64,000 bases of DNA from Trichodesmium erythraeum GBRTRLIN201 (GTDB lineage: Bacteria > Cyanobacteriota > Cyanobacteriia > Cyanobacteriales > Microcoleaceae), in the NCBI GenBank assembly GCA_018457135.1, contig JAGGDU010000046.1:201516-265515 (forward strand). The letters are read 5' to 3'. Position numbers and translations under genes: made by a program. This document shows, piece by piece, positions 37,310-40,184 of the stretch (positions within the stretch are counted from its first letter, which is position 1; every line of letters starts with the position of its first letter). The notes below the pieces were generated by a model. It had not been told where the DNA came from and did no database searches. It was given only the letters and a program-made list of their open reading frames with translations.

Positions 37310-40184
37310 ATGCAAGTCTCACAAAATTGCCTAGATTTAATCAAAAAATGGGAAGGATTTTCTCTGAATGCTTATATAGATCCAGTAGGAATAGCAACTA
37401 TTGGGTATGGAAGCATTCGTTATCCCAATGGAGAAAAAGTTCGTCTAGGAGATAGAATTTCAGAAAGAGATGCAGAAGGATATCTGGGTTTTGAATGTAA
37501 GAAAATAGCACTAGAAATTTCTAAATTAATCAAAGTTCCTGTTAATCAAAACCAATTTGATGCTCTAGTATCTTTTTCTTATGTGCGACTCGTTGGCTAG
37601 TAAAAACTGCTTAAAAGCAGCTATAGCAAGCCTTCCAGGTTTTTAAATGAAGTGAGTAACTTCAACCTGTGAAAACTCTTATGTCCTTAGTGGTGAAATT
37701 CCACCGCCTTGTTGTTGGGTAGAAAGCATAGGCCACGGAGTAGAGACTGAACATCAATCTCCGAAGCTGGCTTAAATGCGGGAAGATAATAGTTGCCAAC
37801 GAAAATACCGCTAGCAGAGACTGACAAGTGGACGAATAGGAAGGTAATAAAACTCTCGTAAAAGATGGCCATTCCGAAGGTAGCTATGGAATGTAGGACG
37901 AAAGTTAGAGGGTTAATGGGTATAGATATATAAGAGTCTATATCAACAACCAATACGCACCCTCCGGGAGATTTTACCCCACTAAATCAGTTGTAATAAA
38001 GGCATAAGGGAACGAGAAAACCTCCCCAAGACACCTAAGAATATGGGTCGAGAACTTAGGAAGCCATTCAAGGTTAATCTACGCACTTAGTCGTAGGTCT
38101 TAGGGAGAGTAGGATTGGGTAAAAAGCATATCTATGCAGACGTACCCACTGTTAGACGTAATGTGAGGTAACAACTAGCAATGAATAAAGCTAAAACACT
38201 AAAAAGACATAATGGTAATCCTAATCTCTTTTTAAGTGTGGCATGGGATACAGACGATACACTGTCCCAAATTAGTATTAATCCTAATTTCAGCTGGAGA
38301 GATATTGATGGGAAACGGGCCCAGAAGAATGTATCTAAGTTGCAAAAGTTAATTTACATAGCATCCAGCCGTGGCAAAATCCCCAAGATGCGTAAATAGC
38401 AAAAACTTCTGACCAAAAGTTATTACTCCTTGTCCCTAGCTTTTAGGCCCGTGATACAGGTAGACCCGGGGAAGAAAACTGCTGGTATGAACTGAATTAA
38501 AAAGCTTCCTCCAATGCAGAGATTTAACTTGGTTGATTCGATTAGCAGAATTAGTAAATATTCTGGTGTAAGGAAAGAAGTTACGATGCTGTTAAATTGG
38601 CAAAAGAATAAATGCGCATCTTATGGATTAACTTTTAGACCAACTGACCTAATTGAATTGGACTATTTAATGCTTATTAATGTTTAGGTCTAAAGGTGGT
38701 GACAATATATAGAGGAATAAACAGTTGTTGCACCGACATTGTCACGATACTAAAACTGCTTTAGACAAGAAAACATATTTAAAAACAAGGCTACAGGAAT
38801 TACTTGATGATTATCTGTGGGTTGACAATATGTTGGCGCTAAGGTGGGGATGTACCTTTTAATTGGGGCGTTTAAGAGAGGAGCCGTGTGAGGTGAAAGT
38901 CTCACGCACGGTTTTGAAGACCAGCAGACACTATAAAGAGTGATCGGAAATGGGTTTGCTGAGTTTAACAATGTAGGAACTGGCGCATTTCAAAGTAGTA
39001 CCTTATTAAAAAAACTAAATCAAGGAGATTATCAAGGAGCAGCTAATGAATTTTCTCGTTGGGTAAATGGGGTGGTTAATGGTGTCAAGCAATCACTACC
39101 TGGTTTAGTATCTCGTCGTGCTGATGAAAAGAGGTTATTTCTTAAAGCTGGAGGAGAGAAAAAACCTTTAGAAGATGAAATTTCCAAACAAGATAAAGTA
39201 ACTTGGTTAGAAGGATATCGTGATGAAAATAAGAAAACTGTAGTTGTAGCTTGGAATGGGGGTAAAGTAGAAGAAATTTTAACTCTAGAAAAGTTTAATA
39301 AAGAGTTATTGGCTAATGTTTTTCCTCAGTATAAAAATGCTAGGTATTATGTCACTGCTCCTGGTAATAAACGAATTCCTCCTGGTGAAAGAATTTCAGT
39401 TTTTGAAATTTCGGATATATATAATTCTGATAAACTTCCAAAACTCAATCGTGTACTAGTGCGAGGGAGTGAAGGTAGTGATGTGAAAATTTTACAAGAG
39501 AGATTGAAGGATTTAGGTTATTATCTAGGAGAACTTGATGCTATTTTTGGTAGGCAAACTGAGCTTGCAGTTATTGATTTTAAAAAAGATTATTTTGGAA
39601 TCACAACAGATAATGCAACAGTAGAGTCCATAACTTGGAAAAAATTATGGGGAGATCCTCTACCTAAACCTCCCGTCTTACCACCCACGTCAAAGAAAAA
39701 TTATCTACTATTAACAAAGACAAGTCGTAAAGATAGATATGGATGTTATGTACTTCACTTAGACTATTTTAAAAGTGGCAAGCTAGAGGACAGGTTAGAA
39801 GTTTGTTGCGGTGCCCCTGGAAGGCAATTTTTCCGTACCGCTGCTCGGAGTCGGGCAATGACTGGAGAACCATTACCAGAGGGAAAGTGGTACATTAATG
39901 ATATTATTTGGGCTGATGGTCAAGATAATTATTATGGTCAAATTTTTCAAAGTGGTATTGGCCCTGTAACAGTTCCCTTAGACTATATAGAACCTGGCAC
40001 AACTGAAAGAAGCGCGATTGAAATTCATATTGACTGGAATCGAAATTATGGTTCTCCTGGTACTGTTGGTTGTATAGCTACTTACAACATAGCTGATTAT
40101 AAAAGGTTTATTACTTGGTTAAGGGATACAGATCCACGGGATCTTTATGTTGACTGGAAATTAGGGACTTCTCCTAAACCTTAG
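37310..40184 (+). CDS. Intron-split lysozyme / peptidoglycan-binding / L,D-transpeptidase-like protein
   Basis: Two exons (37310-37582 and 38970-40184) give a 495-residue protein when the group II intron is removed. Exon 1 ends 'DALVSFSY' and exon 2 resumes 'NVGTGAFQSSTLLKKL', restoring the T4-type (GH24) lysozyme fold at the codon boundary. The catalytic block 'KWEGFSLNAYIDPVGIATIG' (~14-33) contains the Glu, Asp and Thr of the family. The lysozyme part ends near residue 140. A peptidoglycan-binding domain follows ('LVRGSEGSDVKILQERLKDL', ~260-320), then a C-terminal domain with 'AIEIHIDW' and 'GSPGTVGCIATYN', resembling the His/Cys active site of YkuD-type L,D-transpeptidases. No signal peptide is visible. 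It could be phage-derived or a cell-wall remodelling enzyme. Unspliced, it stops soon after exon 1. Confidence 0.88.
38181..38872 (+). pseudogene. Decayed group II intron maturase (LtrA-like), RT core deleted
   Basis: The frame opens MNKAKTLKRHNGNPN and contains 'WRDIDGKRAQKNVSKLQKLI', the typical N-terminal RT0 region of intron-encoded proteins. After TAG (38398) the same kind of sequence goes on as 'LLTKSYYSLSLAF' and 'DPGKKTAGMN', again with a stop. It then jumps to the C-terminal HNH part: 'NKCASYGLTF', 'DLIELDYL', and 'LLHRHCHDTKTALDKKT'. The reverse-transcriptase domains 1-7 and the maturase X domain are missing, and several stops are present. About 0.69 kb remains of an expected ~1.7 kb gene. 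The protein is certainly inactive. Confidence 0.88.
38881..38914 (+). ncRNA. Group II intron domain V
   Basis: The 34-base hairpin has stem strands GAGCCGTGTGAG and CTCACGCACGGTT around GTGAAAGT, with the GAAA tetraloop and the conserved catalytic pattern of domain V. It is the ribozyme's active-site element and appears intact. Confidence 0.92.

Follow-up and report, generated by a model that had tools for sequence, protein, structure and literature searches.

An ORF-deleted group II intron in a lysozyme-type gene of Trichodesmium erythraeum, probably spliced with help from sister-intron maturases

Can a group II intron that has lost its own maturase gene still be removed from the gene that it interrupts, and which protein would then assist it? 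The question is raised by a locus in a 64,000-nucleotide stretch of the Trichodesmium erythraeum GBRTRLIN201 genome, called the window below; positions given without a locus name are those of the window, and the features at them lie on its forward strand. A lysozyme-type gene, with GH24, peptidoglycan-binding and YkuD domains, is interrupted there by a group II intron at 37583-38969. In the explanation that we favor, a chloroplast-like intron belonging to a large Trichodesmium family would have settled in this gene and been deprived of its maturase gene, first through an internal deletion and then through decay, and it very probably still splices as a ribozyme, aided in trans by the maturase of sister introns in the same genome.

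The interrupted gene and the ribozyme

Exon 1 (37310-37582, 91 codons) contains the start of the GH24 phage-lysozyme-type domain (Pfam Phage_lysozyme, 1.2e-21). Exon 2 (38970-40184) carries the remainder of that domain, PG_binding_1, YkuD and the stop codon, with Pfam values of 3e-14, 2.4e-9 and 1.7e-4, respectively, that of YkuD being slightly below the cut-off. Joining the two exons gives a stop-free frame of 495 amino acids that reads SFSY^NVGTG at the junction. The gene is intact over codon 91 at loci L056 and L058-L064, those with fragments only excepted. When seven Trichodesmium genomes were compared, the gene was whole in three (G002, G004 and G005) and interrupted in two (the window's genome, G000, and G006), and a full copy was not found in G001 and G003. 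When plasmids were searched for the host gene, three distant matches came up.

The frame-restoring join, the uninterrupted orthologues and Rfam together define an intron of 1,387 nt (37583-38969, GTGCGAC...GAGTTTAAC). The preliminary description had reported a span of 38181-38872, which covers the dead middle part of the intron but falls short of its full length. The intron ends, GTGCG and AAC, agree with the group II pattern (GUGYG at the 5' end, AY at the 3' end). Domain V, the catalytic hairpin with its GAAA loop, lies at 38878-38918 (Rfam RF04357, 58.6 bits, E 8.5e-11), followed at 38919-38969 by domain VI, assigned from the Intron_gpII match and its consensus pairs, in which the bulged A at 38962, eighth base from the 3' end, is unpaired in the consensus; Intron_gpII (RF00029) matches both domains at 38878-38969 with 56.1 bits against a gathering score of 40.

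The 5' part of the ribozyme (37583-38180, domains I-III and the start of domain IV) was delimited in an alignment of 21 introns, 17 from the window's genome, two from locus L057 and two from locus L072. EBS1 (ATAAGAG, 37930-37936), in its hairpin loop, pairs with IBS1 (TTCTTAT, 37576-37582), the final seven bases of exon 1, through six Watson-Crick pairs and one G-U pair. Across the 21 introns an average of 6.48 of 7 positions paired when each EBS1 was matched with its own exon, as against 3.18 when mismatched, and 0 of 10,000 permutations did as well, a result that the kinship of the sequences overstates. RNAalifold predicted 148 consensus pairs in the first ~600 nt of these introns, 54 of them with both sides changed, and the window intron keeps 144 (range 136-148 over all 21); since the structure was derived from the same 21 sequences, this retention is a consistency check only. 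From domains V and VI, the bulged A, the EBS1-IBS1 pairing and the conserved pairs, the ribozyme looks intact, and excision as a lariat with ligation of the exons is predicted.

The interruption of a conserved lysozyme-type gene, which the preliminary description overlooked, is the best evidence that the intron must still splice. Compared with the intronless orthologue L056, the window gene gave dN 0.082, dS 0.297 and dN/dS 0.275, and the intronless pair L056 and L060 gave dN 0.093 and dS 0.290. These rates indicate purifying selection of about equal strength on the host gene whether or not it carries the intron, which is the main argument that splicing likely still works in the cell. The intron could instead be dead and the lysozyme gene a pseudogene split in two, since decay is expected once the maturase is lost, and several family fragments of the genome have no match to domain V. 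The selection on exon 1 alone is also less clear against L058, L060 and L057 (dN/dS 0.53-0.59), values that are noisy with 78-91 codons only. Against L056, however, both exons, which are open, gave low ratios (0.33 for exon 1 and 0.27 for exon 2), and the splice sites, EBS1 and domains V and VI are intact, so that we regard a dead intron as very unlikely.

The maturase remnant and its deletion

The N-terminal remnant of the IEP, identified by frame reading, Pfam and its match to a sister IEP, occupies 38181-38536 and includes an RT0-type block (38181-38399; Pfam RVT_N, E = 3.2e-4, under its gathering score) and the GKKTAG block. The sister, C203, encodes an IEP of 635 aa with RVT_N, RVT_1, GIIM and HNH domains, and a sister-IEP query matched amino acids 1-121 of the window remnant at 64%. 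Comparison with the C203 and L057 introns places the deletion junction at 38536/38537. Beyond it, a first frame of the C-terminal remnant (GVRKEV...KCASYGLTFRP, 38537-38687), delimited by comparison with C203, has a zinc-ligand Cys and the HNH His changed when read by eye against that protein. The HNH tail follows in another frame at 38718-38862 (LLHRHCHDTKTALD..., from 38725), found by frame reading, and its 'QLLHRHCHDTKTALD...' stretch matches the end of C203 by eye. Stops occur at 38397 (TAG), 38493 (TGA) and 38685 (TAG), the tail after them is frameshifted, and the longest open frame within the intron is 75 codons.

Both remnants match C203 in its own order, and therefore represent two ends of one ORF; an unrelated origin of the two ends was rejected on this ground. 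Of the C203 intron, 1,161 nt have no counterpart here; they encode RT1-7, domain X and the part that precedes HNH. By its sequence the maturase ORF is dead, through the internal loss of about 1.16 kb and the stops and frameshift that followed, leaving an intron without a usable IEP that keeps its ribozyme, as is typical of ORF-less group II introns. The preliminary description of a maturase gene devoid of its RT core, with the RT0-type block, the GKKTAG block and the LLHRHCHDTKTALD end retained and stops between them, is thus borne out, and the alignment with full-length intron ORFs that it called for has mapped the missing segment. Its internal deletion of about 1 kb holds in that a single ORF lost about 1.1 kb; domain X was lost too, and comparison with L057 points to at least two steps.

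The L057 locus, from Trichodesmium sp. MAG_R02, is likewise interrupted after codon 91 by an intron, which has an overlapping, slightly smaller ORF deletion of ~1.1 kb, and the window intron lacks 54 further nt at that place. In a draft genome of 241 contigs, faulty assembly or sequencing of an intact intron could conceivably mimic such a deletion, but there are several stops and a frameshift in the remnant, and the recurrence of the deletion in a related species, assembled independently, excludes such an error for practical purposes. The window and L057 introns formed a clade in the FastTree tree (support 1.0, distance 0.083; next intron at 0.319), and the first 598 nt of the L057 intron group together with those of genome G006.

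Since the L057 intron is already ORF-deleted, the simplest view is that the first deletion occurred before the two lineages split and that the ribozyme has been kept since; synonymous divergence of the host gene between the two species is ~0.3. Identity between the two introns is 562/598 in the 5' ribozyme and 105/107 in the 3' ribozyme (94-98%), as against 561/655 (86%) plus 82 gap columns in the ORF remnant. The ribozyme is therefore better conserved than the remnant, with a Fisher p of 2e-8 that the relatedness of the sequences overstates. An already deleted intron could have been transferred recently between the species, its low divergence then not reflecting constraint, although divergence was greater in the ORF remnant.

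The L057 gene (L057:179-7188) carries three introns, after codons 12, 91 and 100, the second and third of which are separated by a 27-nt micro-exon. Intron 1 (~216 to 2799) starts with GTGTG and has an open 557-codon IEP in which YADK replaces YADD. Three introns, after codons 34, 91 and 356, also occur in the gene of Okeania sp. SIO1I7 (L072:147-8463). Its codon-91 intron was rejected as an orthologue of the window intron from its tree distance (0.398, compared with 0.083 for L057); as it belongs to another lineage and its EBS1 fits its own exon, the codon-91 site was probably hit twice.

Sister introns and repeated ORF loss

A DNA search of the window's genome gave 53 matches, many at ~80% identity, and 27 domain V matches were found, 24 of them over the cut-off. 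Open IEPs that keep YADD are present in C203 and C134b, the latter without an HNH end. C146b has an open IEP of 591 aa in a ribonucleotide reductase gene (motif YAGN) and C9 one of 668 aa in an allophycocyanin-type gene (motif YVDE); C60 and C184 keep YADD in broken frames. Related IEPs are thus available elsewhere in the genome, and any of C203, C134b, C146b and C9 could act as a helper in trans. The preliminary description had proposed a search for an intron able to supply the maturase, and sister introns of ~80% DNA identity, some with open RT/GIIM/HNH IEPs, answer to it.

The internal deletion in a single ORF and the sister maturases in the genome make dependence in trans likely, in line with one half of the earlier proposal of splicing in trans or without protein. 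The other half, a step towards an RNA-only intron, is unsupported because of the many sister introns, several with open maturase frames, and the published trans-acting help (available part of PMC4649490). Splicing in the cell without protein, which has been proposed for the Clostridium tetani intron C.te.I1, would be compatible with the well-preserved ribozyme core and has that described intron as precedent (PMC4424553, in part). We consider it unlikely, given the open maturase frames just mentioned and the trans dependence shown in related Trichodesmium introns (PMC4649490, in part); moreover, according to the portion of PMC4424553 used here, C.te.I1 stands alone among ORF-less bacterial introns in that its genome encodes no related IEP.

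The IEPs at L040, L041, L049 and L055 of the window's genome have long open frames with changed motifs (YAGN, YVDE, YADH, YGGN and YAFD among such IEPs). In G006, which is 92% complete, none of the four readable family IEPs (at least 60% identity to C203, counted from selected stretches and L057 only) keeps YADD, the motifs being YADK, YAND, YADN and YADE. Judged from the motif, the changed IEPs may have lost RT activity. The dN(RT)/dN(X) ratio was 0.73, 1.02, 0.85, 0.90 and 0.71 for five RT-mutated IEPs and 0.63, 0.64, 0.63, 0.50 and 0.90 for five with YADD, L197 alone having been dropped for its too short frame. A relaxed RT domain beside a constrained maturase domain in the RT-mutated IEPs, seen in a smaller first comparison, is not relied on, as this larger set contains an exception.

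We catalogued 17 introns, namely those with both ends found in the examined stretches, introns cut by contig ends and other subfamilies being excluded. Eleven, the window intron and ten others, are ORF-deleted or degenerate: besides the window, their hosts are dnaN (four introns), a second lysozyme/C39 gene (two), and ribonucleotide reductase, thyX, tsaD and ruvA (one each). All 11 lie in protein genes, as against three of the six full-length introns (Fisher p = 0.03, overstated by kinship and based on few and related introns).

Several of these host genes carry further features. The dnaN gene (replication clamp; L036, G000:C19) holds four ORF-degenerate introns of 978 to 1,835 nt; dnaN introns stand at other positions in related genomes, so that sharing of introns between species is not general. 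The second lysozyme-type gene (GH24 and a C39-like peptidase; L037, G000:C134) is interrupted by three introns, of which one contains an open IEP, and introns seem to target lysozyme-type genes frequently in this genome. The thyX gene (L042, G000:C171) contains an intein in addition to an ORF-less group II intron, and the ribonucleotide reductase that hosts an intron is of the adenosylcobalamin-dependent type.

Relation to known ORF-less introns

The window intron is a further case of a kind already known, as ORF-less introns and trans-acting splicing help have been published for Trichodesmium (PMC4649490, available part). The same source cites Meng et al. 2005 for ORF-less introns of T. erythraeum IMS101 in dnaN, ribonucleotide reductase and other genes; there too, ORF-less introns in protein genes occur beside related IEP-bearing introns, and a trans-acting IEP is reported. 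The window's genome likewise has introns in dnaN and ribonucleotide reductase, and in thyX as well. A lysozyme-type host was not found in the literature searched, which comprised some papers by title and abstract start and Meng et al. 2005 as cited in PMC4649490.

Thermosynechococcus elongatus has ORF-less TeI3 introns in which what is left of the two ORF ends likewise flanks a deletion in domain IV, and sister IEPs help in splicing (PMC2882425, in part). Unlike those 17 introns, which according to the same account share one deletion and then multiplied, no two of the 11 ORF-less introns here have the same gap ends, and a single deletion followed by multiplication was rejected for this reason. 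ORF-less introns in conserved genes alongside open, RT-mutated maturases recall plant organelles, with MatK and the nuclear maturases; in contrast to these, the IEPs here are still intron-encoded in the same genome, some of them RT-competent (PMC4424553, in part). The possibly new element is an ORF-less intron common to two species, beside open RT-mutated maturases as in plant organelles.

With repeated ORF loss in housekeeping-gene introns, probable inheritance of ORF-less introns between species and open IEPs that keep a maturase domain but would have lost the RT active site, the whole Trichodesmium group II family may be shifting from mobile retroelements to splicing-only introns, as in plant organelles, a suggestion that we make tentatively and hold to be somewhat less probable than its contrary. 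The available text of PMC4424553 states that nonmobile derivatives seem short-lived in bacteria. What makes the locus interesting, as far as its sequences tell, is the persistence of the intron across species, together with the RT-mutated IEPs. Spliceosomal introns are proposed to descend from group II introns, and a central step in that account is for introns to abandon their own maturase and share one. With an ORF-less intron common to two species, persistence, the number of separate ORF losses and what becomes of the RT domain could be counted in living bacteria.
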